This document shows, in pieces, positions 6,781 to 31,730 of a stretch of 33,684 nt of DNA. Made by a program: the position numbers and the translations under genes. Position 1 is the first letter of the stretch, and every line of letters starts with the position of its first letter. The stretch comes from an uncultured Bacteroidales bacterium (lineage in GTDB: Bacteria; Bacteroidota; Bacteroidia; Bacteroidales; WCHB1-69). The notes below the pieces were generated by a model. It was not told where the DNA came from. It saw nothing but the letters and a program-made list of their open reading frames with translations, and made no database searches. Where the stretch lies: positions 1 to 33,684 of the forward strand of contig CAJOKR010000044.1 in the NCBI GenBank assembly GCA_905235135.1. Reading direction: 5' to 3'.

Positions 6781-6810
6781 TGTAGAGACGCACGGCCGTG
6801 CGTCTCTACG
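6781..6810 (-). repeat. 30-bp palindromic element (family P30) inside a reading frame
   Basis: A perfect 28-bp palindrome at 6782-6809, each half GTAGAGACGCACGG, within a 30-base unit. It is ten codons and is translated in the type IIL gene as VETHGRASLQ, next to the conserved FPYVNGGLF motif. Confidence 0.85.
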
Positions 6811-7281
6811 GTGGTTTTCCCGAACAAACCTCCGTTTACGTATGGGAATTGCGCCAGCACGGGATCCGTATAAGGATCACGGAATTCCGAAGGCGTATTA
6901 AGAATGCCAAACAGTTCAATCAATGCCCGACGAATATGGTTGGCGGGGAAGGCAGCCAAATAATCGTGGAAGGCCGTCTTGTTTCCAAACAGTCCGGCAT
7001 CTTCGGCGTAGAGGCAAAACACCAACCTAACACAGAGCACGTTAAGCGAGTGCAGGGTTTCGGCACTCGTCTTGTCCACGTACTGCTCTAACAGCGCGTC
7101 ATAGATGCGCCCGACCAGCTCGCAAGCCTTCACACTGACCTCCAACTCCCGGTCAATCCAAAATTTCTGAGCCTCGCCTTTCTCGTAGCCGTGGCCCTGC
7201 CAATTCTCAACAAACTTCTTTGCCGCTTTTGCTTGTTTTGCTGATGTTTTCATTGTTTTGATGTATTAAAAAACCAGATGG

Positions 7282-7289
7282 CAAAAGTA
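7282..7289 (-). promoter_or_regulatory. -7 promoter element for the type IIL pseudogene
   Basis: TACTTTTG on the minus strand, about 30 bases upstream of the ATG at 7253. The promoter of the dead gene appears preserved. Confidence 0.5.
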
Positions 7290-7343
7290 GTAATTTTTTT
7301 ACAACTTTTCAAGATTATTAAAAGGTAATATTTAACAGAGCAC

Positions 7344-7371
7344 GTAGAGTCACAAAATTTTGCGTCTCCAC
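7344..7371. repeat. Degenerate P30 palindromic element
   Basis: Begins GTAGAGTCACAAAA and ends TTTTGCGTCTCCAC. It matches the P30 consensus (GTAGAGACGC ... GCGTCTCTAC) with a few substitutions that disturb the outer pairing, so it looks like an older copy. Confidence 0.6.
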
Positions 7372-7372
7372 A

Positions 7373-7457
7373 CCCAAGTACTTCCCAAGTAGTTCCCAAG
7401 TACTACCCAAGTACTTGGCAAGTCAAAGTGCTTGCCTGGACTTGCCAAGTACTTGGG
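7373..7457. repeat. 11-bp tandem repeat and 18-bp inverted repeat
   Basis: Four head-to-tail units of CCCAAGTACTT (7373-7416; units two and three each carry one change). The last unit also starts a perfect 18-bp inverted repeat, CCCAAGTACTTGGCAAGT at 7406-7423 with its complement at 7440-7457 and a 16-base loop. The unit itself contains the palindrome AAGTACTT. The array is flanked on both sides by P30 elements. No gene is present here. Confidence 0.8.
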
Positions 7458-7468
7458 TGTGCCTTGCC

Positions 7469-7498
7469 TGTAGAGACGCAATGCATTGCGTCTCTACA
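7469..7498. repeat. P30 palindromic element, intergenic, perfect
   Basis: A perfect 30-bp palindrome with half TGTAGAGACGCAATG. It has the same ends as the coding copies but a different centre, with the changes in both halves so that symmetry is kept. Confidence 0.85.
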
Positions 7499-7557
7499 AT
7501 AAGTGAGTTTTCGCCACAGACGACAACCTTAAAAATCGTTAAAAATGCGTTTGCCTC

Positions 7558-7589
7558 TTGACAAAGCCTCTTTTTTTTGTGTATATTTG
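7558..7589 (+). promoter_or_regulatory. Strong orphan promoter reading into an intergenic region
   Basis: TTGACA at 7558-7563 and TATATTTG at 7582-7589, 18 bases apart, the best two-part Bacteroidota promoter in the window. No plus-strand protein gene follows until hemW at 9027, and DUF1294 and ogt lie antisense in between. The layout promoter, ~100 bases, boxA resembles a stable-RNA leader. Confidence 0.6.
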
Positions 7590-7688
7590 CAAAACTTTTG
7601 GCGCTTGCGGTGCGTATGTTGTGACTGAAATCCAATTAGTTGCCGCAGACCCAAAAAATTGAAATCCGTCTTTGTGCGGGCTTCAGAC

Positions 7689-7703
7689 GTTCTTTGACAT
7701 ATT
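7689..7703 (+). promoter_or_regulatory. boxA-like antitermination signal
   Basis: GTTCTTTGACATATT matches the bacterial boxA core (TCTTTGAnA) bound by NusB/NusE. It lies about 100 bases after the orphan promoter. boxA is known in rRNA leaders and in some CRISPR leaders; neither rRNA nor an array follows here. Assignment is by motif only. Confidence 0.45.
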
Positions 7704-7772
7704 GTTTAGTAATTTAAATATCGCATGCTCTTTTTCGTTGCAGCAGTTGGCATATTTTCGTGATTTTCCGTA

Positions 7773-8000
7773 GGAGATTCCGCTCGCTCACTACGTTCGC
7801 GGCGGAATGGTGCGCATTGTCGGCGAGGGAAGGGGGAAAAAGATGGGCGGCGGTCATGGAGGTGTCTGCGTCCTCGCAGACACACAAACTGCGAGACGCA
7901 GTTTGCTCCATACACACAACCGCCGCCCATCTTTTTCCCCTTTTGACCCCAAACGTTGTGCACCATTCCGCAAGGCGCGAAGCGCCGCAGCGGAATCTCC
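7773..8000. repeat. About 228-bp imperfect inverted repeat (MITE-like element or giant RNA hairpin)
   Basis: The ends are GGAGATTCCGCT and its complement. Further inside, GCGGAATGGTG pairs with CACCATTCCGC, and GGGGAAAAAGATGGGCGGCG (left arm, about 7833-7853) pairs with a complementary stretch near 7920-7940. At the centre is P60 copy B. Paired and unpaired blocks alternate. The several ORFs across it in different frames have no family resemblance and are by-products of the symmetry. It may be a non-autonomous mobile element, a nested series of palindrome insertions, or, given the promoter and boxA upstream, a long structured RNA. No flanking target duplication was identified. Confidence 0.65.
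7856..7911 (+). repeat. P60 palindromic element, copy B
   Basis: Bounded by ATGGAG and CTCCAT, with inner hairpins GTGTCTGCG-TCCT-CGCAGACAC and CAAACTGCG-AGA-CGCAGTTTG. It aligns without gaps to copy A at 5551-5610 (read on the minus strand) over 56 bases with nine differences. Confidence 0.8.
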
Positions 8001-8067
8001 TCCGTTTAACAACAAACTTCCCGAAAACAACATGGACGGAGCTTGCGAAACTTCAGCCGCGAAAAAA

Positions 8068-8340
8068 TCACTTCGCCAGCAACCACACCGCCACTACCAC
8101 CTGCGCCGCCAATATCGCCGGCACGCCGTACTTGAACTTCTTGTGCTGGGTCTTGTGGTGCCAGACCTGCATCCCCAACCAAGCCCCGACGCTGCCGCCA
8201 ATGGCCGCCAATCCCAACAGAACGCTCTCGGGAATGCGCCAGCGTTTATGCTGCGCTTTCCATTTGTCAATACCATAAACCAGGAAGGTCACAACCGTGA
8301 TGATGGCCAAATAGATCAGAATCAAATTTCTCGCTTCCAT
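8068..8340 (-). CDS. DUF1294 small membrane protein
   Basis: 90 residues. An N-terminal membrane segment (LILIYLAIITVVTFLVYGID), then the DUF1294 signature: DKWKAQHKRWRIPESVLLGLAAIGGSVGAWLGM followed by HKTQHKKFK and a last membrane segment (VPAILAAQVVVAVWLL); the described motif spans about residues 25-58. The family occurs widely in bacteria as a small integral membrane protein of unknown function, sometimes fused to a cold-shock domain, which is absent here. The gene ends after the repeat-rich region and lies 4 bases downstream of ogt, so the two probably share a transcript from the promoter upstream of ogt. Confidence 0.88.
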   Translation of the reverse strand: MEARNLILIYLAIITVVTFLVYGIDKWKAQHKRWRIPESVLLGLAAIGGSVGAWLGMQVWHHKTQHKKFKYGVPAILAAQVVVAVWLLAK

Positions 8341-8344
8341 GACG

Positions 8345-8956
8345 TCAAAACAGTGTCGGTTCCCATTTTTGGAGGCCGGCGCTTTTGGTGTTGGACTGCG
8401 TCTCCATATTCAGCAATTTGACCTTTCGGGAGACATCCCACCGATAGCCGCCGAGCGTGCCGTCGGTGCGAACCACCCGGTGGCAGGGCACGATGCACAT
8501 CACCGGGTTAGCCCCAACCGCCTGTCCCACCGGCCTCGCTGCCTTGGGCCGATGAATCCGCTCGGCAATGTGCCCGTAGGTAGTCACCATACCGTCAGGG
8601 ATGGTCAGCAGATCACGCCACACCTCCAGCTGGAAGGGGGTGCCGTACAGGTGCAGGCAAAGACTCGGCACTTTGTCGTAGCGGCGACGAAGCAGCAAAA
8701 GGGCTTTTTTGTGCAGGGAAACGGTACGATTGTAGAAACGCGCTTTGGGAAAATGCCGCCTTAACGTCGCCTCGGGTTCCCACTTCATAGCGGCAGGCAT
8801 CAAGAAACAGATTCCCTTGGGCGTCGAGGCAATCAAAACGCGCCCCACCGGGGCGGACTGGATGCTGTAGCTGATGGTAAGAGGCTTCTCCCTGCCTGAA
8901 AACTCCTCCCTTGACATCGGTTCTATCCAGATGCGGCAATGTTTTTTGTCGTTCAT
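8345..8956 (-). CDS. ogt: Methylated-DNA--protein-cysteine S-methyltransferase (Ogt/AdaC type)
   Basis: 203 residues from the ATG at 8956. It repairs O6-alkylguanine in DNA by moving the alkyl group to its own cysteine, a suicide reaction. The active-site motif CIVPCHRVV is intact, with Cys158 as acceptor, and the winged-helix segment with GTPFQLEVWRDL, YGHIAERI and PVGQAVGANP precedes it. The Ada-type phosphotriester (zinc) and AraC domains are absent, so this is the stand-alone form. The frame is open 13 codons further upstream, but the promoter element at 8975-8982 overlaps that stretch, so the later ATG is preferred. It is followed 4 bases later by the DUF1294 gene and is divergent from hemW. 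Confidence 0.92.
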   Translation of the reverse strand: MNDKKHCRIWIEPMSREEFSGREKPLTISYSIQSAPVGRVLIASTPKGICFLMPAAMKWEPEATLRRHFPKARFYNRTVSLHKKALLLLRRRYDKVPSLCLHLYGTPFQLEVWRDLLTIPDGMVTTYGHIAERIHRPKAARPVGQAVGANPVMCIVPCHRVVRTDGTLGGYRWDVSRKVKLLNMETQSNTKSAGLQKWEPTLF

Positions 8957-8974
8957 TTCAAGCGAATTGGACTG

Positions 8975-8982
8975 CAAAGATA
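8975..8982 (-). promoter_or_regulatory. -7 promoter element for ogt-DUF1294
   Basis: TATCTTTG on the minus strand, 19 bases upstream of the ogt ATG. It rules against the longer start, which would lie upstream of the transcript. Confidence 0.6.
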
Positions 8983-9013
8983 CAAAATTAAACACATTGG
9001 CCTAAAAAAAACG

Positions 9014-9021
9014 TACTTTTG
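9014..9021 (+). promoter_or_regulatory. -7 promoter element for hemW, almost on the start codon
   Basis: TACTTTTG ends five bases before the hemW ATG. With the usual spacing the transcript would begin at or within a base or two of the ATG, so the mRNA would be leaderless. Confidence 0.5.
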
Positions 9022-9026
9022 CCGCC

Positions 9027-10169
9027 ATGAAAGAAAAATGCGGTCTCTATATCCATGTCCCGTTCTGCAAGTCCAAGTGCGTTTACTGCGGATTCTATTC
9101 CACCGTGAACCAAAAGGATATGGACAAGTATTTGTCTGCTTTGGAAAAGGAAATAGTACTGCGAAAAGACGAACCGGCAGGTAAAGCCTTTCAAACCGTC
9201 TATTTCGGTGGCGGCACCCCCACCCTGCTGCAACCCGCTCAGCTGCAAGGGATTCTGGACGAGCTGCACACCCGCTTCCACATCGAGCCGGACACGGAAA
9301 TCACCATCGAGGCCAACCCCGAACAACTTACCCCTGATTACTGTAAATCCCTGAAATCGTTGGGGTTCAACCGGTTGAGTATCGGCATACAGTCGTTTCA
9401 AGATGAGATTCTACAATTCTTGGGACGGCGGCATACGGCGCAACAGGCTTTGCAAGCAGTGGAGAATGCACACAACGCTGGTTTCAACAATATCTCCATA
9501 GATTTGATTTACGGGGTGAATGAGCGAAATAATGAACTATGGAAGAAAGAGTTGGAAACCGCCTTCTCACTTCCGATAAAGCACTTTTCCGCCTACGCGC
9601 TCACCGTGGAGGAGAACTCCCTGCTCTACCGCCGCATTCAACAGCATCGGGATGTGGAACCCGACGAAGATTTAGCTTCCGTACAATATACTATATTGTC
9701 GGAAATGGTGGACAAGTCGCCGTTCGCGCAGTACGAGGTCTCCAATTTCGCGATAAAAGGTTGGGAATCCAAGCACAATTCCGCTTACTGGGACCGCACG
9801 CCCTACCTCGGTCTCGGTCCGGCGGCTCACTCTTTCGACGGCACACACCGCTCCTGGAACGCCCCGACGCTCGCCGCCTACTTCACCCAAATTGCGGATC
9901 GAAAGCCCTTCTTCGAGCGCGAAACCCTCACGGAAACAGACCGTTACAACGAGTACCTGCTCCTGCGGCTACGCACCCGCGCCGGCATCGACTTGCGGGA
10001 GATGGAAGCGCTTTTCGGACGGGAGCGCACGGACGGTCTGCTCCGGCATTTCGAGACGGACGTGGACACCCGCCACTACGAGCACACCCCCGACCGATTG
10101 AGACTGACTTCGGAGGGATTCTGGTTCGCGGACGGGATTGCGGGGGACTTGTTCGAAATCGGTTTCTGA
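9027..10169 (+). CDS. hemW: HemW, radical SAM haem chaperone (HemN-like)
   Basis: 380 residues, normal for HemW. The 4Fe-4S radical SAM motif HVPFCKSKCVYC gives Cys14, Cys18 and Cys21. Other family landmarks are YFGGGTPTLL, ITIEANPEQL, NRLSIGIQSF, LGRRHTAQQA, and ISIDLIYGVN. HemW is often annotated as oxygen-independent coproporphyrinogen III oxidase, but the short HemW branch lacks the extra N-terminal cysteine of true HemN (here CVYCGF, without a fourth Cys) and is thought to bind and deliver haem. The C-terminal HemN_C region (LRLRTRAGIDLREMEALFG) is present. The gene is monocistronic or the first of a unit, divergent from ogt with 70 bases between them. Confidence 0.93.
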   Translation: MKEKCGLYIHVPFCKSKCVYCGFYSTVNQKDMDKYLSALEKEIVLRKDEPAGKAFQTVYFGGGTPTLLQPAQLQGILDELHTRFHIEPDTEITIEANPEQLTPDYCKSLKSLGFNRLSIGIQSFQDEILQFLGRRHTAQQALQAVENAHNAGFNNISIDLIYGVNERNNELWKKELETAFSLPIKHFSAYALTVEENSLLYRRIQQHRDVEPDEDLASVQYTILSEMVDKSPFAQYEVSNFAIKGWESKHNSAYWDRTPYLGLGPAAHSFDGTHRSWNAPTLAAYFTQIADRKPFFERETLTETDRYNEYLLLRLRTRAGIDLREMEALFGRERTDGLLRHFETDVDTRHYEHTPDRLRLTSEGFWFADGIAGDLFEIGF

Positions 10170-10227
10170 ATTCAAACTATTTTCATCTTGTCTCAAATAT
10201 CGTAAAGACAGATTCACATTATTTGTG

Positions 10228-10235
10228 TATTTTTG
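10228..10235 (+). promoter_or_regulatory. -7 promoter element for the DUF3990 pair
   Basis: TATTTTTG, 19 bases upstream of the ATG at 10255, showing that this pair has its own promoter rather than depending on hemW. Confidence 0.5.
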
Positions 10236-10254
10236 CCGCATTAAACTTTATACG

Positions 10255-10716
10255 ATGGAACTATATCACGGAAGTTCACAAATAGTACAAAACCCTGAAA
10301 TCAGGATTGCGAAGTTCAACAAGGACTTCTACTTTGGTTTCTATTGCACTGCTTTATATCATCAGGCAGTCCGTTGGGCAACACGTTTTGGGGACGGATA
10401 CGTCAATTCTTATGATTTTACACCTAACCCTAATTTGAAAGTGCTTCGTTTTGAAACCATGACAGATGAATGGTTAGATTTCATCGCAGCATGTAGGAAC
10501 GGGAGCAAACACGACTATGACATTGTGGAGGGTCCGATGGCCGATGACACTATCTTTAACTATGTTCAGGGATTCTTAGATGGAAAAATATCTCGAGAGG
10601 CATTTTGGGATTTGGCCAGATTCAAAAATCCAACACATCAAATCTGTTTTAACACACCTGAAGCTCTTTTGACATTACGTTTCAACAAAGCAATCGAAGT
10701 TTATGAAGAAAAATAA
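10255..10716 (+). CDS. DUF3990 protein, probable ADP-ribosyltransferase-fold toxin
   Basis: 153 residues. The start MELYHGSSQIVQ, the FGFYCTALYHQAVRWA segment and the later YDFTP...LKVLRFE block match DUF3990 (PF13151), a family related to ADP-ribosyltransferases; the YHGS and FYxT-like motifs correspond to the NAD-binding strands of that fold. The catalytic Glu cannot be assigned with certainty. Cytoplasmic, no signal peptide. The stop overlaps the next gene by 14 bases, so the two are coupled. The pair has visibly lower GC than hemW and the GH20 gene around it, which suggests transfer. DUF3990 genes commonly occur next to small partner genes in gut bacteria. Family call is firm to moderate; the toxin role is inference. 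Confidence 0.75.
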   Translation: MELYHGSSQIVQNPEIRIAKFNKDFYFGFYCTALYHQAVRWATRFGDGYVNSYDFTPNPNLKVLRFETMTDEWLDFIAACRNGSKHDYDIVEGPMADDTIFNYVQGFLDGKISREAFWDLARFKNPTHQICFNTPEALLTLRFNKAIEVYEEK

Positions 10717-11143
10717 TACTGCCCTATTTTACACGTGCAGTCTGATTGAATTTATTGCCCGACAGACAAAAAATGAGAGGTCGCTTGTGGTGAATCTCTT
10801 AGGGGATAACATTGAACGTATTTACAAATATCAAGATGTTTTCCATAGCGAGCCTATCGAAAAAGTGGCGGATGATTTCATCACCCGTGCCAATATTCCG
10901 AACGGTCAATACGACAATGTGAAACTTTGTCGCTACAACGTACCTGATTATTGGGATATTGGCGAGGTATTTTCCCGTTTATTAGAAGATTGTTATTCTG
11001 AAGAAGAAACATTTAAAGGCATCCGCGAGGTTTATAACTCTTGGATTTCCATGAAAATCCTGAACTTCAACTCCGACCTTTATTACCAATCCCGCGAATA
11101 TATCGCGGAATGCTATCGCAGCGGGTATATTATTGCAGCATAA
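10703..11143 (+). CDS. Partner of the DUF3990 protein, DUF3791-like at its N-terminus
   Basis: 146 residues, overlapping the DUF3990 gene by 14 bases. The N-terminal ~60 residues (FYTCSLIEFIARQTKN, VVNLLGDN, YQDVFHSEPIEKVADDFI) resemble the pattern of DUF3791 proteins, which are frequent neighbours of DUF3990: a helix, a short linker, then a 'YDVLH...DDFI' type ending. The remaining ~85 residues (NVPDYWDIGEVFSRLLEDCYS, YNSWISMKILNFNSDLYYQS) are acidic and helical and unknown to me. No membrane segment or signal peptide. If the pair is a toxin-antitoxin system this would be the candidate antitoxin, in the less common toxin-first order. Resemblance is from memory and weak. Confidence 0.65.
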   Translation: MKKNNTALFYTCSLIEFIARQTKNERSLVVNLLGDNIERIYKYQDVFHSEPIEKVADDFITRANIPNGQYDNVKLCRYNVPDYWDIGEVFSRLLEDCYSEEETFKGIREVYNSWISMKILNFNSDLYYQSREYIAECYRSGYIIAA

Positions 11144-11159
11144 TAAAAAGAAACCAAAC

Positions 11160-12794
11160 ATGAAAAAGATCACCCTTTTGACTATCATCCTCGCGGCCGT
11201 CGTGCTATTCGGCTGCCAGAAGCCCAAAGCCGTCGTCGTCATCCCCGAGCCTGTGGAAATCACGCCCAAAGGCGGCCAGTTCACCATCGACCAGAATACG
11301 ATGCTCTGCTTCGACAATCTCGGGGCGGAATCGTCCGAAACCTCGAAGATGATTCGCGACCTCTACGAGAGCTACTTCAAGATGCGTCCCAACCTCGGCG
11401 ACGCAGAGAGCGCGAAGAAGCACTCCATCCTCTTCAGCATCAGCAAGAAAGAGATCAAGGACATCGGCGACGAGGGGTACGTGCTCACGGTGAAGCCCAA
11501 CCGCATCGTGGCGGAGGCCAACACCACCGCCGGACTCTTCTACGCCATGCAGACGCTCATGCAGATGGCCGGCACCGACAAGTTGGCCGACAGCAAGACC
11601 TTCGCCGTGCCCTGCGGCACTATCACCGACTACCCGCGCTTCCGCTACCGCGGCGCCCACCTCGACGTGTCGAGGCACTTCTTCGACACCGCCTTCGTGA
11701 AGAAGTACATCGACATGCTGGCGTTCTTCAAGATCAACAAGTTCCACTGGCACCTCACCGACGACCACGGCTGGCGCATCCAGATCGACCAATACCCCGA
11801 ACTCACCCGTGTCGGCGCATGGCGACCCGAACGCACCTCTTGGGATACGCTGCACCCCGTGCTGCCCGATGAACCCATGACCTACGGCGGCTTCTACACC
11901 AAAGACCAAATCCGCGACATTGTGCGCTATGCCGCCGCCCGGCACATTGACATCATCCCCGAAATCGAGATTCCCGGCCACTGCAGTGCCATCCTCGCCG
12001 CCTACCCGCAGTTCGCCTGCGACGACTACCCCTACACCGTGGCCGTGGGTCCCTACTGGCCGCCGAAAGCCATCATGTGCGCCGGCAACGACGGCGTGCT
12101 CACCTTTTACAAGAACGTTCTCAACGAGGTGGCCGAACTTTTCCCCTACCCGCTCATCCACATCGGCGGTGACGAGGCCTTCAACGACAATTGGCAGGTC
12201 TGCCCGAAATGCCAGCAACGCATTCAGGACAAAGGACTTAAGAACGAATTCGAGCTCCAACAGTGGTTGATGAACCAGATCGAGCACCATCTGGATTCCC
12301 TCGGCAAGAAAGCCATCATTTGGGACGACATCGTGTCGGACGACATGGTGAACACCTCCACCATCATGTGCTGGCAGGGCCATGACGTGGCGAAAACCGC
12401 CGCCAAGCACGGCAACGACGTGATCATGTGCCCCACCACGCACTGCTACTTCAACTACTACCAGTGCAAAGACAAGGACGAGCGGCTCTGCATGGAGGGC
12501 TACGTCTCCTTGGGCAAGGCCTACTCCTTCGACCCGATGCCGGAGGGCTTGAGCGAAGCGCAGCAGAAGCACATCCTCGGCGGACAGTGCAACCTCTGGA
12601 CCGAATTCATCAACGACCCCGAAACAGCCGAATACATGATCATGCCGCGACTTTTCGCGCTTTCGGAATGCGTCTGGAGCCCGAAAGAGAAGAAAGACCC
12701 GAAGAAATTCGCCACGAAAGTCGATTTCGAGCGTAATTTGATGAAGAAGTTGGGATACCGGCCTTCGAACAGAACGGTGATGGAACTGGAATAG
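11160..12794 (+). CDS. GH20 beta-N-acetylhexosaminidase lipoprotein
   Basis: 544 residues from the ATG at 11160, chosen because it starts the signal peptide MKKITLLTIILAAVVLFGC; Cys19 would be lipidated, placing the enzyme on the outer membrane or in the periplasm. After an N-terminal GH20b-type domain (to about residue 150) comes the catalytic barrel, with YRGAHLDVSRHFF, KFHWHLTDDHGWRI, EIEIPGHCSAILAAYP and the catalytic pair in HIGGDEAF (Asp338-Glu339). GH20 enzymes remove terminal GlcNAc or GalNAc from glycans by substrate-assisted catalysis, as in mucin or chitin-oligomer breakdown. No sus genes are nearby. GC is higher than the window average. A terminator follows. Confidence 0.94.
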   Translation: MKKITLLTIILAAVVLFGCQKPKAVVVIPEPVEITPKGGQFTIDQNTMLCFDNLGAESSETSKMIRDLYESYFKMRPNLGDAESAKKHSILFSISKKEIKDIGDEGYVLTVKPNRIVAEANTTAGLFYAMQTLMQMAGTDKLADSKTFAVPCGTITDYPRFRYRGAHLDVSRHFFDTAFVKKYIDMLAFFKINKFHWHLTDDHGWRIQIDQYPELTRVGAWRPERTSWDTLHPVLPDEPMTYGGFYTKDQIRDIVRYAAARHIDIIPEIEIPGHCSAILAAYPQFACDDYPYTVAVGPYWPPKAIMCAGNDGVLTFYKNVLNEVAELFPYPLIHIGGDEAFNDNWQVCPKCQQRIQDKGLKNEFELQQWLMNQIEHHLDSLGKKAIIWDDIVSDDMVNTSTIMCWQGHDVAKTAAKHGNDVIMCPTTHCYFNYYQCKDKDERLCMEGYVSLGKAYSFDPMPEGLSEAQQKHILGGQCNLWTEFINDPETAEYMIMPRLFALSECVWSPKEKKDPKKFATKVDFERNLMKKLGYRPSNRTVMELE

Positions 12795-12828
12795 TTCAAT
12801 GAAGAATGTAGAATGTAAAATGAAGAAT

Positions 12829-12862
12829 ATTGAGGCTGTCCTGCGAGGCGGCCTCAATTTTT
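12829..12862 (+). terminator. Terminator after the GH20 gene
   Basis: ATTGAGGC and GCCTCAAT form an 8-bp stem around a 14-base loop, followed by a T-run, 35 bases after the GH20 stop. The rest of the gap to 12955 shows nothing I can name. Confidence 0.65.
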
Positions 12863-12955
12863 GATAGGAGCCGATGTTCCCAATCGTCGAAAAACGCATA
12901 GCGTAGATATGCGGATCTATTTCCACGCATGAAAAAAATCATGTAAACAGCCAAA

Positions 12956-13140
12956 TCATTTTTCCGCTAACAACGGCAAGTGATCCTCCTTCAAAAGATT
13001 CATTCTTGTTGTGAGCATATCGGCATATTCTTTGGTCGCGGGTTCGTTAACAGGATAACAATCGGAAGACTAAATTCAACTTGCTCGAAGTTTCTGTCCA
13101 ATTCGTCCAGACTCACCCATTTTTTGGTATCAACTTCCAT
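12956..13140 (-). pseudogene. Frameshifted gene remnant downstream of the RhuM fragment
   Basis: An ATG at 13140 opens MEVDTKKWVSLDELDRNFEQ; the frame then breaks near 13054, and the next frame continues PVNEPATKEYADMLTTR to LLAEK and a stop at 12956. Adding one base joins both parts into about 60 residues of protein-like, charged sequence. I do not recognise the family. It overlaps the end of the RhuM reading frame by 28 bases in another frame, so the two were probably brought together by a deletion. It may alternatively be a small gene with a sequencing error. Confidence 0.4.
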
Positions 13141-13820: not shown

Positions 13821-13843
13821 AATATTTGTTTCTAAATTGGATG

Positions 13844-13851
13844 CAAAAATA
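13844..13851 (-). promoter_or_regulatory. -7 promoter element for the RhuM gene
   Basis: TATTTTTG on the minus strand, with TTGACA about 18 bases further upstream, together a good two-part promoter 24 bases before the ATG. Confidence 0.5.
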
Positions 13852-13897
13852 CAACAAAAAAGGCCGCTTGTCAAGAGGAAAAATCGTTTTTTTTATC

Positions 13898-15499: not shown

Positions 15500-15532
15500 G
15501 AATGTAGTTCAAAAAAAGTGATTACGGAATCT

Positions 15533-16207: not shown

Positions 16208-16251
16208 TTGGTTGTTTGTTTATGTTTAACTTTTACTTTTTTCTCTTCTCC

Positions 16252-16277
16252 TTCCGGCCGACGTCAGGAGGCCGGAA
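16252..16277. repeat. Short palindromic element (family P3), copy 1
   Basis: TTCCGGCC, a ten-base loop GACGTCAGGA, and GGCCGGAA, followed by CCTC. A second copy with a different stem but almost the same loop is at 24562-24591. Both lie just upstream of minus-strand genes. Confidence 0.55.
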
Positions 16278-16291
16278 CCTCTTCCATATCG

Positions 16292-19028
16292 CTATAGTAC
16301 CGTTATCGTCCCTCTATACACAAACGGTTTCCCGTCAAGATTCTTCACGCGGATAATCCAAACATAGACTTCGGAGACTTTGGCATTCTCGCCAGACCAG
16401 CGGAAATTCATGTCGTTGGTCTTGTAGATAAGCGAGCCCCAGCCGGTCGTAAATTTCAATATCGAAATCGGTAATGAAGCGATGAACATATTCCGGCAGG
16501 AAAATATAGTCGTTGAGACCATCCTCGCGGGAGGGCGATATCGCATTGGGCATGAAGATGTTGAACTCACAAGACTGGACGGTGTAGTGGTCAGAGGCCT
16601 GACATTCGCCCTGCGTCACCGTCACCGTGTAGAGTCCGGGCTGCGTGACGGAGATAAACTCGGTGGTGTCGCCAGTATTCCAAATGTATTCCTCATATTC
16701 GGAAACAGCGTCAAGCACCAGCTCACCGTACTCGCAAAAATCATCTCCCGAAGTCACAATCTCCACCGCCGGTTCCAGAATCTCAAGATGCATGGTCACG
16801 ATACTGTCACAACCATGCGAATCAGTCAAGGTCTGGTGGTAGTCCCCCGATTCCACATACGTGTGGCCGTTCCAAGTGTATTGGTTGCACGCAACGTGGG
16901 AAAATTCGCCAAACACGCTGTCGCGAACGGTGAGTTGGAGGATGAGCACGCTGTCGCACGCATACCCGATCGGTGACAGATGCACGGAATCAGTCAGCTG
17001 GTGAGGGATAACGGTACTGTCGGCGGGAAAGTGGAAGAGACCTCCGAAACCGGTATAGCTGTGACCCGGGCAGACAGTGTCAAACACAATCTGACGTTTC
17101 ACGCTGTCGCGGACGGTAAGTTCGAGAATCAGGAAGCTGTCGCAACCCATCTCAACAGTCTGCAGAAGCAACGTGTCCAAAACAGTCCCGACCTCAGCGG
17201 TGCTTGTGGCTGGGATGGTAAAACCATAACCGTTATAGGCCTCACCTGGACAGATGGTGTCATACACCGTCTCATAGACAGTCGGGTGGACGGTAATGAG
17301 AATGGAGTCAAACAAAGGCTCGTTGGTACAGCTACGAGAATCGTGTGCGACCACCGTGTACCAGCCACTATGCTCCGGAAGCACATTGTTCCGCTTATAG
17401 GGCTGTTGCATTATTTCAAAATTGTTGGGTCCCAAAATCCTGTCTATTGCAGCATCAATAGTGTCAAAGCCAAAAATAATGGTATCCCCTTGACAGTAAT
17501 CGAAGTGGGTAACTGCCGTATCGAATATAATCGAACTCACCGAGGTATAGTTGCTGAAGTAACTGATGGAGCAGTCGTCATAGCTGCCGTTGATGTCGAA
17601 CACACCCATGTGGAACTTGCCGAGAGAATTGGTAACCCGGAATGTGACCATATTCGTAGCTGACGGCGCATATAAGGTCGAAACATCCTTACGACAGTAC
17701 TTATACGGCCCGAAAGGCACCGAACTCCAATCACTCGCCGTGATGACATTGGAATTGCCATTGATCTGGAAACCAGAAGTGTAGTTTGCATCGCACAAAA
17801 GCGTAAGATACAGCGATTTGTTATTCCCGTTGGCAGACTGCAGCGGCCGATAGCCCACAGATCTGGAAACAGTACAGTTGACTGGGGGCAGCTGGGTACC
17901 TCCGAACTCTTTACCGGCACCCGTAATCTGAAACACGAAAATAGGAGCCGGCAGCACCTCGCCTGTGATATCATCCGTCCGGTTGGCATAGATGAAAATA
18001 GGATTGTTATTCGTGAAATGGACTTTCTGCTTGTCACCACGATTCATCGTATAGGTGGTATAGGTCGGATTATTGATATTGCCGCTGACAACATACACTT
18101 CGGTGCTGTTCTCCAAGGCATAAATGAAGGCATAGTCAAGATAATGGTTTCCTCCCCCACTCGTGGCAGGCGCCGTGTTGTTAACGCTCGACGGAGACGG
18201 CACCACGATGTATTCGCTGCCCGCCATGGATTCCGGAACCAACTGATCGGCAACCAAGTCCGCACTGCCGTTTCCGTTATCGGTAGTCTCTGTGCAATAG
18301 GGGGTTACAGAATCGTCGGAAACATCCACCACGATGGGGTTGTTGGAGGTAATGATAGTACCTCCGAGATGGTTGGCGGCGGCCTGCGAGCTGGCGGCGA
18401 GGGTATATACCTGCCCCCGCTGCAAGGGAACCGTAAACGGAACGTTGGCCGCATGTCCGACACAAGCCTTCGACGGCGTGATGTTAACCGTGGTATTATC
18501 CTCTGTGGCAATAATCTCAACCGTATTTTTCGCCTGCGAATAGGCACCGGAACTGCTGCCGTTACCATTGGCAAATTGGAACTGGGTGGTGACAAGAAAT
18601 TCCGTTCCGAGACCGTTGGCTCCTTTTAGTGCATAAATCTCGCTATTATTCTGACACACAGCCACGTATGCATTAATCGTGGCGGTAGAGTGAATATAGA
18701 GGCCGTTGTTGGATGTTTGGTTATGGTTGCATTCGAAACCGCTGAGGCCAGACGAGTTCGACACTAATGTCAGCGTGCTGGAGGAATTAGCAGCCACATT
18801 GAGTGTGGTGCCCACCTGGGTGTTGGAATAGGCCTTGGTCACCGTAACAGTTGCCGGATCGTCATATGTGGAGACCACCAGCGTGATGGGCGTATGTGCG
18901 TGTTCCGACGTGAGTTTCGGCACCGCAAACCAGAAAGCCGTGTCCGACTGTGCAAAACCCGTAATGGTACAGCACAGCAACAGCACCGCGAAACCAAATC
19001 GCCTGAATACAGTTATGCTCTTTGACAT
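16292..19028 (-). pseudogene. IgGFc-binding-like T9SS cargo protein with a C-terminal frameshift
   Basis: Begins MSKSITVFRRFGFAVLLLCC with a Sec signal ending ITGFAQ. The N-terminal ~500 residues match the IgGFc-binding-protein N-terminal domain of Bacteroidota surface proteins (DTAFWFAVPKLTSEHA, YDDPATVTVTKA, GAGKEFGGTQLPP). Several ~80-residue modules follow, each with a CDS core (GCDSFLILELTVRDSV, ACDSVLILQLTVRDSV, HGCDSIVTMHLEIL), then the CHU_C/T9SS type B sorting domain (FNIFMPNAISPSREDGLND, FDIEIYDR). One extra base near 16442 breaks the frame after EIYDR; the other frame resumes as WGSLIYKTNDMNF and ends KPFVYRGTITVL at 16292. The broken version ends at 16335 with an unrelated tail. 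Without its sorting signal the protein should not reach the surface. A sequencing error is possible. Confidence 0.85.
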
Positions 19029-19053
19029 AAAACTTTTTTTCAGATTAAGGCTG

Positions 19054-19061
19054 CAAAAATA
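19054..19061 (-). promoter_or_regulatory. -7 promoter element for the IgGFc-like gene
   Basis: TATTTTTG on the minus strand, 25 bases upstream of the ATG at 19028. It supports that start over longer in-frame ones. Confidence 0.5.
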
Positions 19062-19095
19062 ATAATTTTTCCTTATGGAAAATATGGAAAAAGTG

Positions 19096-19103
19096 TATCT
19101 TTG
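19096..19103 (+). promoter_or_regulatory. -7 promoter element for glyA
   Basis: TATCTTTG, 55 bases before the glyA ATG, back-to-back with the divergent promoter at 19054-19061. Confidence 0.6.
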
Positions 19104-19158
19104 CATTTTCTAATTATGAACTTAAAAAGGTTTATTATCAATCAAATACATCGTTAAT

Positions 19159-20439
19159 ATGAAAAGAGACGAACAAATTTTCAACCTCATCCAGCAAGAG
19201 CGCGAACGCCAGACCAACGGCATCGAGCTGATTGCTTCTGAGAACTTCGTGAGCGACCAGGTGATGGAAGCCATGGGTTCCGTTATGACCAACAAATATG
19301 CGGAAGGCCTTCCGGGCAAACGCTACTACGGCGGCTGCCAGATTGTGGACCAATCTGAAGAGCTGGCCATCGCCCGCGTGAAAGAGCTTTTCGGCTGCGA
19401 ATGGGCCAACGTGCAACCGCACTCCGGCGCCCAGGCCAACATGGCTGTCCTGATGGCTTGCCTGCAACCGGGCGATACCTTCATGGGCCTCGACCTCAAC
19501 CACGGCGGTCACCTTTCCCACGGCTCCCCCGTGAACTCCTCCGGTATCCTCTATCGTCCTGTGGCTTACCAAGTTGACGAAGAGACCGGTTGTGTCAACT
19601 ACGACACGATGGAGGAAGTTGCCCTCCGCGAGAAACCGAAGTTGATCATCGGCGGTGCTTCCGCCTACAGCCGCGACTGGGACTGGGCACGTATGCGTCA
19701 GATTGCCGACAAGATCGGTGCCATCCTGATGGCTGACATATCCCACCCCGCCGGCCTCATCGCCAAGGGTCTCCTCAACAACGCTGTGGCTCACTGTCAC
19801 ATCGTGACCACCACCACCCACAAGACCCTCCGCGGACCTCGCGGCGGTCTGATCATGCTCGGCAAGGACTTCGAGAATCCGTGGGGCAAAACAACCCCGA
19901 AGGGCGTCGTGAAGATGATGTCCCAGATCCTCGATTCCTCCGTCTTCCCGGGCTGCCAGGGCGGTCCGCTGGAGCACGTCATCGCTGCCAAGGCTGTCGC
20001 TTTCGGCGAGGCCCTGACCGAAGACTACGCCAACTATGTGAAGCAGGTGAAGATCAACGCCAACGCCATGGCCAACGCCTTCGTGCAAAGAGGCTACAAG
20101 GTCATCTCCAATGGTACTGACAACCACCTGATGCTCATCGACTTGAGAGCGAAATTCCCCGAAATGACCGGTAAGGTGGCTGAAAACACCCTCGTGAAGG
20201 CCGACATCACCATCAACAAGAACATGGTGCCGTTCGACACCCGTTCCGCCTTCCAGACCTCCGGTATCCGCGTGGGTACGCCTGCCATCACCACCCGCGG
20301 CCTGAAAGAGAACGACATGCCCGTCATCGTGGAAATGATTGACAACGTGCTCTGCGATGTCGAGAATGAGGAACTCATCGCCAAGACCCGCAAGACGGTC
20401 AACGACATGATGCACGACCGTCCGCTCTTCGCTTGGTAA
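19159..20439 (+). CDS. glyA: Serine hydroxymethyltransferase
   Basis: 426 residues, full length. A cytoplasmic PLP enzyme that converts serine and tetrahydrofolate to glycine and 5,10-methylene-tetrahydrofolate, the main source of one-carbon units. Landmarks: [64 protein letters not shown], and the PLP lysine Lys222 in [14 protein letters not shown]. The C-terminal domain has [15 protein letters not shown]. Codon use is strongly biased to C-ending codons, typical of a highly expressed gene. Monocistronic: its own promoter, then a P30 palindrome and a strong bidirectional terminator. Confidence 0.97.
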
Positions 20440-20453
20440 TCATCTTCCATACC

Positions 20454-20483
20454 TGTAGAGACGTGCCATTGCGCGTCTCTACG
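20454..20483. repeat. P30 palindromic element between glyA and its terminator
   Basis: TGTAGAGACG and CGTCTCTACG ends with a partly mismatched centre. It lies directly before the terminator stem, 15 bases after the glyA stop. Confidence 0.75.
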
Positions 20484-20490
20484 AGCCAAA

Positions 20491-20520
20491 AAAAAGCCCC
20501 GACATCGATCGGGGCTTTTT
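20491..20520. terminator. Bidirectional intrinsic terminator, glyA and DUF5723 cluster
   Basis: AAAAAGCCCCGA, loop CATCGA, TCGGGGCTTTTT: a strong GC stem with A/T tails on both sides. It serves the convergent glyA (plus) and the minus-strand cluster ending at 20540. Confidence 0.9.
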
Positions 20521-20539
20521 CAATTCTAATTCTCTAATA

Positions 20540-22000
20540 CTATTCGTCTTTATCCTTTTTCTTCTCCTCTTTCGCACTCTTCTCCCCCTTCGGATATTTC
20601 TCCTTCCAGTTTTTATAATGTCCCCAGTTGAAGACGATACCGGCGGTGGCCGTCAGCTGTGAAGCGTTTTTGACCGAAAATGCGGCGATAATATTCTGCG
20701 TGCCGGCATAGATATTCAAGAAGCCTAAGTTGAAGCCCACTCCGACACCCAAATTGTCGAACAAGTTGCGCTGCATGGTGTAAGCCACACACAAATCGAA
20801 GGCATTGAAGAAACAGCCATCGTAGGCAATGGTGAGGGAAGGCTGGAAATAATGGCTGGAGAAACGTAATTGCGTGGCAGCACTCAAACGATGATGCTTG
20901 GCAAACTCATAGTCGGCCTGTATTACCACTCTCGGAGCGAGAGTTGTTGTATATTTCCCTGTAGGAGCGATTTCCAGCGGGAAATACTGCGCCAACGTAT
21001 CCAGCAATTCTGAGATGTTCTCCCCGTTGATCAAAGCCTGGATTTGCGATGCGCTCAGACCGCTGAACGTGAACGACCCATTGTTGTACATATTGCCTGC
21101 ATCATCCGGATAACTGGTCATGGCCACAGTGGAGGTCTTCCAGCTTAAGAAACCAAGATCCAGCACGCCCGCGGACAAACTGAACGCTTCTGTCGGCTTA
21201 AACGTGATACCCAAGTCCAAACCGAAACCCAGATTCTTGCCCGCGTTTTTCAGAATCGTTTTCACGTCCGTATTGTAATCAAAATTAAAGCCGTCCTGCT
21301 GGTTGAAGGTCATCGTAAAGGGCACAATGGCGGCTGCGCGCATTGCGGCATAGTAATCCATGGTAATGGTATAATCGGTGGGATCCGTATAGATCTGCGC
21401 GGAGAGGCTTTGGGTATTCAGATTGGCGATACCGAAGAGCAATCTCGGACGAATCCCGAACGATACCTTGTCATTGAATTCATGCCGGAAACTGATACCG
21501 AGTTCCTGATAGGCCGTCAGATTGATGTTCATATCCAAATTCGCAGGCTCGTCAACGTATGCCATGTTACCATAAATGGGGAGTCCGAGCACATCCCGGG
21601 AGTATTTGACATCGAGATTTGCACGCAGCCTATAGTCCACCGTGAGGAATGAACGCTTGTTGATGCGGAACCCGAACCCAAGAATCTCCATATCGGCAGC
21701 GACTCCCAAATAGTTGTTATCGGAAAGGTTGTTCACGAAGCGCGTGGCGGTCAGCACGGTAGGATAACCCTCCGCATTGGTCTCGAAGAGGTTATTGTAA
21801 CGGATGGCACCCAAATTCACCCCAGCGTGAATATTACCGGTGGGAAGGCTGAAATAGCCGTTGTAGATGGTGGAGCTGGATGGCAGATCGATATGCTGGA
21901 AGGGGGAGATACGCATGAAGTGGGTCACGTCAAGTCCTTGGGCTCCAGCCGTCAAGCAGCTGCCCAGCGCGACCATCAAAACCAGAAAAAACTTTCGCAT
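20540..22000 (-). CDS. DUF5723 family outer-membrane beta-barrel protein
   Basis: 486 residues from the ATG of MRKFFLVLMVALGSC (an ATG three codons earlier is also possible). A Sec signal ends at TAGAQG. The mature part alternates hydrophobic and polar residues in many beta strands with repeated aromatic-glycine motifs (GVNLGAIRYNNLF, LSAGVLDLGFLSW, GVGVGFNLGFLNIYAGTQN), as in DUF5723 proteins of Bacteroidota, which are predicted outer-membrane barrels resembling OmpP1/PorV-type porins. The C-terminal tail is very lysine- and glutamate-rich (KYPKGEKSAKEEKKKDKDE) and probably periplasmic. The gene starts a few bases after the upstream lipoprotein stop, so the two are co-expressed and may form a complex. 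Function unknown. Confidence 0.85.
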   Translation of the reverse strand: MRKFFLVLMVALGSCLTAGAQGLDVTHFMRISPFQHIDLPSSSTIYNGYFSLPTGNIHAGVNLGAIRYNNLFETNAEGYPTVLTATRFVNNLSDNNYLGVAADMEILGFGFRINKRSFLTVDYRLRANLDVKYSRDVLGLPIYGNMAYVDEPANLDMNINLTAYQELGISFRHEFNDKVSFGIRPRLLFGIANLNTQSLSAQIYTDPTDYTITMDYYAAMRAAAIVPFTMTFNQQDGFNFDYNTDVKTILKNAGKNLGFGLDLGITFKPTEAFSLSAGVLDLGFLSWKTSTVAMTSYPDDAGNMYNNGSFTFSGLSASQIQALINGENISELLDTLAQYFPLEIAPTGKYTTTLAPRVVIQADYEFAKHHRLSAATQLRFSSHYFQPSLTIAYDGCFFNAFDLCVAYTMQRNLFDNLGVGVGFNLGFLNIYAGTQNIIAAFSVKNASQLTATAGIVFNWGHYKNWKEKYPKGEKSAKEEKKKDKDE

Positions 22001-22011
22001 AGCACCCATAA

Positions 22012-23589
22012 CTAATTGCCTAAGTTAACCAAACTGTTCAAGTCCACATTCATTCTTGCAGACAATTGCAGACGGATTGCCTGAGCCACATTGATGGAAA
22101 TGGGGTATTCATCAGCAGTTAGACGGGCCTGCAGGATGATGTTGTCGCAGTCGAACATGCGCTGGACCGCTTCGAAATTCTCCTTGGTGGCAAAAAGTTC
22201 GCTGAGACGAGGGATGCCATTTTGCGCACACAACACCATCTGTGGCGACGTAAAGAGGCTGTCCTTAACCGTAGCGGTCTGTGAGTCATAGAAATACACC
22301 TGCATCTGGAAATTCAACGGCAGGCCGTTGGCAATACCCAGACGCATCAGAAGATTGGTGAATCCCGACTCGGAAGGCAGGTTGATGCCGCCAAACGGAA
22401 TTGTGTCACGGAACATGATGTCGTCCATGTTCATCTCCAACGGAAGGACCACAGTAATACGAAGGCTGATGAGCTGGTCGTCGCGGAACACGAGTGTCGG
22501 GGTGCTGAAACCATCGGGGTTGATGACCGCATTGCCGTTGAGTTTGAAGTGGTCGTAGTCTGGAGAAAGTAACAACGAGCTGGCTATCGGAAGGTTAACT
22601 GGCACAAACTGGGTGGTCGAAGCAGGTATCTCCACGGTAGCGGGCGAATGTGAAAGCAATGATGAGGAATAGCCACCGCCCGACAGTTGTGCCTGATTCA
22701 ACACAATAGTGCCTCGCACCGGGAAAGAGTTCAAAATCTCGCAGGTGACTTCCGGATTCAGAAGTGTCATAGTGCCGGAAATGTGATCCCGCAAGAACTG
22801 GCTGTCGAAATCCCACTCTTTATCCACGGCAAGATCCACAGCGGTGAATTTACCACGTATCTCACTGAATGCAACATGGTTAAACGAAACACTGTAGTCG
22901 AACGAGAGTACATTTGGCAAAGAACTGGTGCTTGCATTACATGAGACCTCCATGAAGATATCGATCTCATTGTCAGAAGGAACGGTGAGAGAATAATTAG
23001 CGAGATTGAGCGTGGTTGTGTAGCTGCCACCCGAAGATTGGGCCTCCACACGGAACTGCTGTCCGCTGGCATTGGTCAGTTGCGGACAGGTGACGACAAT
23101 CTGCGTAGGCTGCATAATGTTATACGTGACATGAATCGAGATTTCTCCCGATTTCAGCGAAGCACTCTCCAGCAGAACCTTGTCCGTGGGGAACTGCGTC
23201 GAGAGGGTGTCGCGGTAAAGCAGCTGCACATTCCCCTGCACCGGCGGAAGATCGACCGAGGAGAAGGATTTGGACCCCGACACCGAAATTTCGTTATTGA
23301 AATACGCATCCAAATACTCCGACGCGGAGATTACCGAGTCGAACGTATATTCATAACGAATTTCGAGGGTTCCGTCACTGCCTTGCTGGAGATACCCCGA
23401 ATTGTCGCTCATCTCCAAAATATCACCGATGGTGTATTCGGCATTGACCAACGGGAAACCCCAATCGCCATTGGCATCTATCCCATCCAGTTGGGAAAAG
23501 TCAAAAGCGTTTTGGTTTTGGCAGCCCGTGAATAAAACCGCCGTCAGAATAACGGCTATACAAGAAATACAATGGTAAATTTGTCGCAT
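22012..23589 (-). CDS. Large hypothetical lipoprotein paired with DUF5723
   Basis: 525 residues. A lipoprotein signal (VILTAVLFTGC, Cys23) is followed by FDFSQLDGIDANGDWGFPLV, a stretch common to Bacteroidota lipoproteins that sit next to DUF5723-type barrels, and then beta-rich sequence with many Ser, Thr and Pro and few Cys. No catalytic motif or carbohydrate-binding motif was recognised. It is the first gene of a two-gene unit with the DUF5723 barrel (3-12 bases apart), so it is probably an outer-membrane lipoprotein working with that barrel. A TATTTTTG promoter element lies 24 bases upstream. Function unknown. Confidence 0.75.
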   Translation of the reverse strand: MRQIYHCISCIAVILTAVLFTGCQNQNAFDFSQLDGIDANGDWGFPLVNAEYTIGDILEMSDNSGYLQQGSDGTLEIRYEYTFDSVISASEYLDAYFNNEISVSGSKSFSSVDLPPVQGNVQLLYRDTLSTQFPTDKVLLESASLKSGEISIHVTYNIMQPTQIVVTCPQLTNASGQQFRVEAQSSGGSYTTTLNLANYSLTVPSDNEIDIFMEVSCNASTSSLPNVLSFDYSVSFNHVAFSEIRGKFTAVDLAVDKEWDFDSQFLRDHISGTMTLLNPEVTCEILNSFPVRGTIVLNQAQLSGGGYSSSLLSHSPATVEIPASTTQFVPVNLPIASSLLLSPDYDHFKLNGNAVINPDGFSTPTLVFRDDQLISLRITVVLPLEMNMDDIMFRDTIPFGGINLPSESGFTNLLMRLGIANGLPLNFQMQVYFYDSQTATVKDSLFTSPQMVLCAQNGIPRLSELFATKENFEAVQRMFDCDNIILQARLTADEYPISINVAQAIRLQLSARMNVDLNSLVNLGN

Positions 23590-23612
23590 AACATATTATT
23601 TGATTACGGCGA

Positions 23613-23620
23613 CAAAAATA
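23613..23620 (-). promoter_or_regulatory. -7 promoter element for the lipoprotein-DUF5723 pair
   Basis: TATTTTTG on the minus strand, 24 bases upstream of the ATG at 23589. It separates this pair from the sigma/anti-sigma-like unit upstream. Confidence 0.5.
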
Positions 23621-23665
23621 CAAAAAATAACTTAGTTTTCGTACTATGTTGAAAAAAAATAAAAA

Positions 23666-24496
23666 CTACGTTCGAATGATACGGACTTTGCCAGTGGCCT
23701 GATTTTCAATACCGTTGTAGAGGAAGGTGAATTCATAATTATAGACTCCGTCAGGGCAGTTGCCGCCGTCCCAAGAGTTCTGATAAGAGCCGCTCTGATA
23801 GACGATACGATTGTTCTTGTCACGCACAACAAGCCTCGGAGAGGTGTAGTTCTCCAATCCTTCAATGACGAACTTGTCGTTGACACCGTCGCCATTCGGG
23901 GTGAAGAGGTTGGGAATGCTCAGATGTGCAGGTGGCGTCCATTCGACATTCTCGTCCGAAAGGGTCCTCAGCACGGGATCGGCCGCCAACTGTTTGGCAA
24001 GTGTGGAATTCGGGGGAAGAACCTCCTGCCGCACGTTGGTTTTCGGAGCTTCTTTCGTCGCAGATTTGGCCGGTATTTCGGGCTGAGATGACGAGGTTTG
24101 GCGCGTCTCGGCAACAGTAGGTGATTTCTCCTGTAGAGACGTACCTTGGCGCGTCTCTACAACGACAGCAGATTCCTCCTCCTGTGAAAATGTAACAGTT
24201 TGCGAAGACGCAACATTTTGCGTCTCTACAACAGCCTCCTGTGGTTGCGTCTCAACGGTTTGTTCTGTTATTTCCGTCGCCGCAAGATCCTCATTATGAT
24301 GTGATTGTCGCAAAATACCGAATGCCACGCCACCGCCGATGGCGATAATGCCCACCGCAATGGCCGCCCACTTCCATACCGTATTACGGCTCCGACGCAC
24401 AGGCATCTCCGCATCCAAGCGCGACTCCAACCGACTCCAAACATCCTCCGACGGCCGCTCATTGTAATTGTCCAATATTTCTTTTATATCTTTCAT
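23666..24496 (-). CDS. Membrane protein: anti-sigma-like N-terminus, repeat-derived linker, CHU_C-type C-terminus
   Basis: 276 residues with no cleavable signal. Residues 1-40 (MKDIKEILDNYNERPSEDVW) look like the cytoplasmic start of Bacteroidota anti-sigma-type proteins. One membrane segment (residues ~42-63, WKWAAIAVGIIAIGGGVAF) follows. Residues ~70-150 form a low-complexity linker largely made of P30 elements read in one frame (VETQNVASSQ, VETRQGTSLQ, AETRQTSSSQ). The last ~85 residues form a gliding-motility-associated (CHU_C) domain: LSIPNLFTPNGDGVNDKFVI, ending NQATGKVRIIRT. That domain normally is a T9SS sorting signal on secreted proteins; here it would sit in the periplasm on an inner-membrane anchor. 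Located 124 bases after an ECF sigma gene, so it is the likely cognate regulator or sensor. It is intact. Confidence 0.8.
   Translation of the reverse strand: MKDIKEILDNYNERPSEDVWSRLESRLDAEMPVRRSRNTVWKWAAIAVGIIAIGGGVAFGILRQSHHNEDLAATEITEQTVETQPQEAVVETQNVASSQTVTFSQEEESAVVVETRQGTSLQEKSPTVAETRQTSSSQPEIPAKSATKEAPKTNVRQEVLPPNSTLAKQLAADPVLRTLSDENVEWTPPAHLSIPNLFTPNGDGVNDKFVIEGLENYTSPRLVVRDKNNRIVYQSGSYQNSWDGGNCPDGVYNYEFTFLYNGIENQATGKVRIIRT
24083..24230 (-). repeat. Three P30 palindromic elements in a row inside the anti-sigma-like gene
   Basis: Copies at 24083-24112 (strongly diverged), 24132-24161 (best preserved, ends GTAGAGACG and CGTCTCTAC) and 24201-24230 (one arm decayed). All are read in the same frame, beginning GTA GAG ACG or a derivative. 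A further fragment encoding VETQPQ may lie at about 24247-24258. Different decay suggests stepwise insertion or duplication. Confidence 0.7.
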
Positions 24497-31701: not shown

Positions 31702-31730
31702 TGTCCTAATTTTAAGGTTTTTATAACGAA

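Follow-up and report, generated by a model that had tools for sequence, protein, structure and literature searches.

P30, a palindrome with the feet of a double-foot REP, occurs in frame in housekeeping genes of an uncultured Bacteroidales bacterium

Several kinds of repeat described in bacteria resemble the palindromes reported here. Repetitive extragenic palindromic sequences (REPs) of subclass 2.4, the "double foot" REPs, are found in Cyanobacteria, Bacteroidetes, and other phyla, and they flank and enter tnpAREP genes, generally between the HuH and Y motifs, with the reading frame unbroken (PMC6006769, 2018). Intragenic GTAG and CGTC REPs give in-frame peptides in many genes, the TAG of GTAG often being used as a stop, and the recB genes of two Xanthomonas contain different REPs at about one site; the accessible text of that study gives Bacteroidetes for CGTC and not for GTAG repeats, and it gives the sequences of Rickettsia palindromic elements (RPEs) as CGTC-tagged (Di Nocera et al., 2013, PMC3733652). 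In the REP orthoswitch, orthologous genes of REP-associated tyrosine transposases (RAYTs) are flanked by different REP classes, and older variants may in part give way to newer ones (Nunvar et al., 2013, PMC3686654). The way in which REPs spread is not well understood; in vitro, TnpA_REPs of groups 2 and 3 cleave beside REPs, mostly at CT, and carry out strand transfer (PMC8266576). Here we analyze P30, a palindrome present in a 33,684-nt stretch (the window: positions 1-33,684, forward strand, of contig CAJOKR010000044.1) from an uncultured Bacteroidales bacterium (GCA_905235135.1; 118 contigs, 3.26 Mb; "own" below refers to this genome, G numbers to the genomes compared, and L numbers to loci or stretches cut from them). 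From its sequence and its neighborhood we consider it probable (roughly 0.78) that P30 is a non-autonomous double-foot REP, with GTAG at one end and CTAC at the other, of a TnpA_REP of RAYT group 4 (a subclass 2.4 HuH nuclease).

P30 is a 28-bp palindrome, mostly with T/A flanks and hence about 30 bp long. Its exact pattern (GTAGAGACGY-N4..14-RCGTCTCTAC) occurs 186 times in the own 3.26 Mb, and the same pattern reversed, our control, does not occur. Allowing mismatches, we found 168 copies (154 of them 28 bp long) in a 1.50-Mb sample made of the window and 77 other stretches (46% of the genome), versus none for the reversed sequence, so the palindrome family proposed in an initial annotation of the window is real and not due to chance. 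In the copies found GTAG pairs with CTAC, and is not the unpaired tag at one end that characterizes classical GTAG REPs. A T stands before GTAG (or an A after CTAC) at 146 of the 206 ends of exact-arm copies, which makes 30 bp a plausible length for the mobile unit. The commonest core of the sample, AAAATTTT, accounts for 21 of 99 exact-arm 28-mers, and the same core is carried by the own TnpA_REP gene. P30 is present in 34 of 36 genomes of the genus (own included; 0 to 225 copies), in eight of 24 genomes from other families of the order, and in 38 of 296 genomes sampled across the phylum (own included), mostly with one to six copies. One P30 core was tested against cyanobacterial plasmids and found in three records; in a Planktothrix plasmid (NZ_LR882937.1), an annotated type I polyketide synthase gene covers a P30 with the core TTGCATGCAA. 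A related 29-bp palindrome with GTAGAGCC arms has four exact-arm copies in the own sample (L029:19173, L088:14320, L126:5804, and L126:15123), and GTAGGGGC arms likewise have four.

P30 copies lie inside or beside TnpA_REP genes in four genomes from three genera. In G044, a relative from another family, a P30 cluster flanks and enters, in frame, a truncated tnpAREP gene (MPNHIH), which is truncated after the insert. A search with this gene gave matches in 34 of 60 genomes, some of them weak. The single match in the own genome (L354:2-637, a 212-aa frame with MPNHIH..WQ..YIENN) has P30 in frame between HuH and Y (SETQNFASLQ) and two imperfect P30-like copies downstream, at 797 and 1170; the contig begins at the gene, and copies are seen on the downstream side only. 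In G015 a TnpA_REP gene with no P30 inside lies between two identical P30s, and in G038 both exact-pattern copies of the genome are inside two TnpA_REP ORFs with the frame kept, one between HuH and Y (L356) and the other before HuH (L352). The flanking copies and the in-frame copies between HuH and Y are arranged as in the double-foot class, and the ends of P30 agree with the definition of that class (5′ GT[AG]G and 3′ C[TC]AC feet; PMC6006769). Read by motif against the NH[IFV]H, WQ, and YIxNNP of subclass 2.4, the own and G015 proteins have NHIH, WQ, and YIENNV (the final P is missing), and those of G038 have NHIH/NHLH, WQ, and YIQQNP and YIINNP. Another TnpA_REP-like gene (L019, G000:C20; NHVH..YIQNNP) has ends that encode GGAAFLPQ/RQECR peptides from a different repeat, of the GCGGCATTCCTGCCG type; a similar gene is found in G013 (L314), and L313 is a third kind, with ASSV peptides.

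Pfam assigned the coding hosts of P30 to EPSP synthase (AroA), LpxB, LpxK, and GH97. AroA, LpxB, and LpxK were searched in the 36 genus genomes, with matches in 33, 32, and 35 of them (own included), and the loci of 29 relatives each were compared with the own one (30 sequences), the remaining matches being left out of the comparison. P30 is found in seven of 30 LpxB sequences, nine of 30 AroA sequences at site 1, five of 30 at AroA site 2 (with a decayed remnant in L132), and four of 30 LpxK sequences; all LpxB and AroA site 1 copies are read in the GTA GAG ACG frame (VET below), and all AroA site 2 and LpxK copies in the xGT AGA GAC frame (RDA below). A third AroA site, near codon 55 in the extended frame, has a P30 in four of 30, two of them with three to four arm mismatches. 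Dropped from these counts were L169 (LpxB) and L143 (AroA), with four arm mismatches at other places, L128 position 24 (AroA, near the extended-frame start), and L132 position 834 (the decayed site 2 remnant). The own LpxB is longer by a net 30 nt than each of the empty genes of G012 and G013; relatives with nothing at the LpxK and AroA sites exist too, and there the net length is not 30 nt (36 nt for LpxK, own versus G012); the intergenic sites were mostly too diverged from G012 and G013 for net lengths. The LpxB match of G026, a tblastn match only (its locus is outside the cut set), breaks at the P30 site. Orthologues without the insert had been proposed beforehand as a check, and all three enzymes have such relatives, while filled orthologues keep the frame of their site; judged by these alignments, the coding copies are true insertions and not old peptides. 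An AlphaFold2 model of LpxB (31 sequences; mean pLDDT, the predicted local distance difference test, 86.4) has only one segment of at least three residues below 50, residues 241-249, which belong to the P30 peptide and have a helix on one side and a strand on the other. The nearest named relatives of this LpxB are from metagenome-assembled Bacteroidales genomes, many of them from ruminants.

We tabulated reading frames with gene calls from our own hexamer-based caller, which is not a standard program. Among the 168 sample copies, 100 lie between genes, 45 extend over a gene end, and 23 are inside called genes; since called genes make up about 90% of the sample, P30 strongly avoids genes. Twenty of the 23 intragenic copies are in the VET frame (VETxxxxSLQ and variants) and three, in LpxK, AroA site 2, and a 1973-aa protein at L087, are in the RDA frame (xRDAxxxxVST); none is in the third phase, where TAG comes up immediately. 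Of the 45 copies at gene ends, 32 supply the stop of the called gene through G-TAG. Four VET copies are possibly not internal, being near called starts (L090 and L112) or stops (L026 and L029, the latter with GTAGAGCC arms); without them the count is 16 VET to three RDA (P = 0.002 if both open frames are equal). The window copy at 6782 is not in the table because the caller placed a spurious ORF there; it would make the count 17 to three. In 0.59 Mb of the relatives G012 and G013, 15 of 54 copies are inside genes, 13 VET and two RDA, although several of these sites are orthologous to own sites and so are not independent. The in-frame habit is thus real, and VET is favored, but the initial claim that the frame is always the same does not hold across the genome. 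Compatibility of the peptide could be behind the bias towards VET, which is a guess.

On the reading we prefer, P30 would be spread on single-stranded DNA by the TnpA_REP of the same genome; we infer that this enzyme moves it. With its usual T/A flanks P30 is about 30 bp, that is ten codons, and therefore insertion need not break the frame. One of the three phases would end in TAG and be tolerated at gene ends, the other two, being open, would add a ten-residue loop (VETxxxxSLQ, less often xRDAxxxxVST), and selection would retain insertions in loops, linkers, and ends. Several points weigh against this reading. P30 is fully palindromic, and classical REPs are asymmetric. Its movement was not observed. 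The own TnpA_REP ends in YIENNV and not YIxNNP, and has no Pfam match at E up to 0.01. P30 density shows no difference (P 0.41) between the 20 genomes with a TnpA_REP match (E ≤ 1e-10) and the 16 without, among 36 genus genomes of which many are incomplete. CT precedes GTAG at 33 of the 206 ends versus a background of 5.2%, but TT is commoner (71 of 206), something that simple cutting at CT would not lead one to expect. The surroundings of 34 Pfam Y1_Tnp matches (30 in relatives and four own) contain just three P30-like copies in 104 kb; four of the matches (L016, L017, L062, and L066) look by motif like another Y1 class. Of the own four, L016 and L017 are among these, L018 is a long frame in which the motif pair sought is missing, and L019 comes with a different REP. 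The count of Y1_Tnp matches does correlate with P30 density (Spearman 0.66, n = 36), but we dropped this as evidence, since genome size correlates with both and P30-like copies are so few at those loci.

Two other explanations have to be weighed against the double-foot REP. The initial annotation likened P30 to RPEs, and it could be a selfish palindrome of that kind that spreads in some other way, independently of any RAYT, and whose nearness to tnpAREP is incidental because these genes collect REPs. The lack of a density difference with and without a detectable group 4 TnpA_REP would fit this, as would the in-frame peptides: like RPEs, P30 is a tolerated in-frame palindromic insertion that is absent from orthologues. 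We nevertheless regard it as unlikely, given that the RPE terminal CGTC tag is missing, that the GTAG/CTAC feet match the published double-foot class (PMC6006769), and that four genomes from three genera have P30 in or next to TnpA_REP genes, as is true of both exact copies of G038; ends and location together point to a double-foot REP and not an RPE. It is less probable still that P30 is kept as a functional RNA or DNA hairpin (a terminator or an mRNA stabilizer) with the coding copies as spill-over. Such a role would suit the enrichment in convergent gaps (31 of 137 classed copies versus 76 of 745 gaps, odds ratio 2.6), the depletion in divergent ones, and the 32 called genes that end on the TAG of P30, but it agrees poorly with a copy number that varies from 0 to 225 within one genus and with the lack of a fixed T-tract after the palindrome in the copies listed.

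Orthologous sites often contain P30 copies with different cores. There are four cores among the seven filled LpxB species, nine core strings in nine species at AroA site 1 (some related or mutual reverse complements), five cores in five species at AroA site 2, and two core types in four species in LpxK. The GH97 site has three different cores in the own genome, G012, and G013, with matched flanks 72-86% identical, and a site at a C-terminal YPNP-type domain, recognized by eye, has GTAGAGAC arms in the own genome and GTAGGGGC arms in G013. In 38 site comparisons of the own genome with G012 and G013, made by eye, 14 sites are filled on both sides, six with identical or almost identical cores and eight with clearly different ones; five further ones were left out (palindrome or remnant displaced, decayed, or poorly aligned), and the rest are empty or too diverged. 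The LpxB core of G003, ATGTGCACAT, the one core for which we made a species-private check, has 22 copies in G003, four in three other genomes, and none in the remaining 32 of the 36, so the core at this older site looks like the core that is spreading in that species. These differences suggest in-place replacement of the hairpin inside essential enzymes, which we infer would draw on the species' own pool, by strand transfer or gene conversion via the constant arms. A more specific version, which we put forward tentatively and rate somewhat below even odds, is that the hairpin in LpxB, LpxK, or AroA is a re-writable ten-codon cassette: the hairpin on the rise in a species would replace its central residues in place, probably when TnpA_REP transfers strands at CT steps in the constant arms, so that host proteins would be edited concertedly across the genome.

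The main alternative to replacement, repeated independent insertion at one hot spot, is clearly less likely in our view but has observations on its side: among relatives, alleles with and without the insert are intermingled (the own LpxB is filled and the G012 LpxB, 95% identical by tblastn, is empty), and the 5′ flanks differ slightly. Against it, a derived flank (LQNGN or close to it) is common to most filled LpxB alleles and missing from empty ones, and the inserts at AroA site 1 mostly have similar added flanking residues on both sides. Core symmetry might also be kept by mutation of one arm and hairpin-templated repair of the other; the core is perfect in 61 of the 99 exact-arm 28-mers, and another 25 have a single mismatched pair. 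This we find improbable, as cores at one site may differ at several symmetric pairs at once, matching discrete types common elsewhere, as the imperfect core GCGCCATGGCAC has itself multiplied (seven copies in the sample) and recurs at LpxB in four relatives, and as one LpxB core hardly occurs outside its species.

The initial annotation knew of no such system in Bacteroidales, but the double-foot class, with its frame-keeping tnpAREP insertions, is already described for Bacteroidetes (PMC6006769). P30 shares with subclass 2.4 REPs the GT[AG]G foot, the C[TC]AC end, the phylum, and a position in and around tnpAREP with the frame kept (PMC6006769), and it differs in being also in unrelated genes (lpxB, lpxK, and aroA), in having empty orthologues, and in its core differences at fixed sites. 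With the REPs of Di Nocera et al. it shares in-frame peptides, the use of TAG as a stop, and different REPs at one gene site, but there GTAG is an unpaired tag (PMC3733652). Different repeat variants at orthologous places are also a feature of the orthoswitch, which was seen at RAYT loci, whereas the core differences of P30 are inside housekeeping proteins (PMC3686654). Thus in-frame REPs in genes and in tnpAREP (the latter also in Bacteroidetes) and different REPs at about one gene site (Xanthomonas recB) are already published; what stands out is P30 in housekeeping enzymes with empty orthologues, and core differences at fixed coding sites with one core nearly species-private. In a search of titles and abstract beginnings, outside which most subscription papers fell, we recognized no publication describing P30 in Bacteroidales housekeeping genes, and the matches listed by a literature search for GTAGAGAC were all unrelated by title. 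P30 may be copied around the genome of a gut bacterium by its own enzyme, with parts of essential enzymes rewritten in place. Frame-locked copies in conserved proteins provide aligned sites and empty controls with which to score insertion, loss, and replacement of the core. If core turnover is real in-place replacement, a domesticated transposase edits the sequences of essential proteins, and how REPs spread can be tested directly.

The window itself contains six P30 palindromes (one with three arm mismatches) and a degenerate one, listed with their remnants in Table 1.

Table 1. P30 palindromes and P30-derived remnants in the window.
Feature	Position	Strand	Peptide or context
P30, core CACGGCCGTG	6782..6809	-	VETHGRASLQ, broken MmeI-like (type IIL) ORF 6312-7253; missing in three homologues
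Degenerate P30	7344..7371	.	intergenic
P30, core AATGCATT	7470..7497	.	intergenic
P30, core GCCATTGC	20455..20482	.	intergenic, between convergent called genes
Decayed P30 remnant	24083..24112	-	AETRQTSSSQ, linker of CHU_C-domain protein
P30	24133..24160	-	VETRQGTSLQ, ORF 23666-24496
P30 with three arm mismatches	24202..24229	-	VETQNVASSQ, ORF 23666-24496
Probable half copy	24239..24256	-	VETQPQ, same CHU_C-protein linker
P30	31732..31759	.	overlaps called 5′ end of ORF 30601-31743 (TTG start)

Some details of the initial annotation changed on this closer view. All three coding copies of the window do have the GTA GAG ACG frame, and the decayed and half copies in the same linker are in the same phase as the full ones, but the at least five intergenic or flanking copies claimed are three good ones and one degenerate. 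The copy at 31732..31759 is probably upstream of the true start of its ORF. The copy in the type IIL gene is in the VET frame as claimed, but the MmeI-like restriction-modification gene (minus strand, 5330-7253) is split into three ORFs (6312-7253, 6052-6624, and 5330-5935), so this copy sits in a decayed gene; at the P30 site the fragment has 11-13 residues more than the homologues in Table 1. An MmeI-like homologue on another contig of the own genome has a 1081-aa open frame. The gene called anti-sigma-like, ORF 23666-24496, ends in a CHU_C type IX secretion domain, and Pfam gave no anti-sigma family for it at E up to 0.01. Its linker, with three P30-derived peptides and a half copy, looks as if it were a landing pad.

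P60, which the initial annotation described as a second in-frame family in the type IIL gene, is a longer hairpin with the core CTGCGAGGACGCAG, present at 5540-5608 and 7856-7924 in copies that are 80% alike and in inverted orientation. The first copy is indeed within an open ORF, about where the match to the MmeI target recognition domain stops and the C-terminal match starts, but P60 is a separate hairpin with few exact cores (two variants, with four and three occurrences in the 1.50-Mb sample). An origin of P60 from P30 nested in P30 was considered and rejected: half-arms occur near 28 of the 168 P30 copies, mostly as dimers or fragments, and the P60 sequence differs. Between 7373 and 7461 the window also contains repeated CCCAAGTACTT units, partly palindromic, that adjoin P30 copies.

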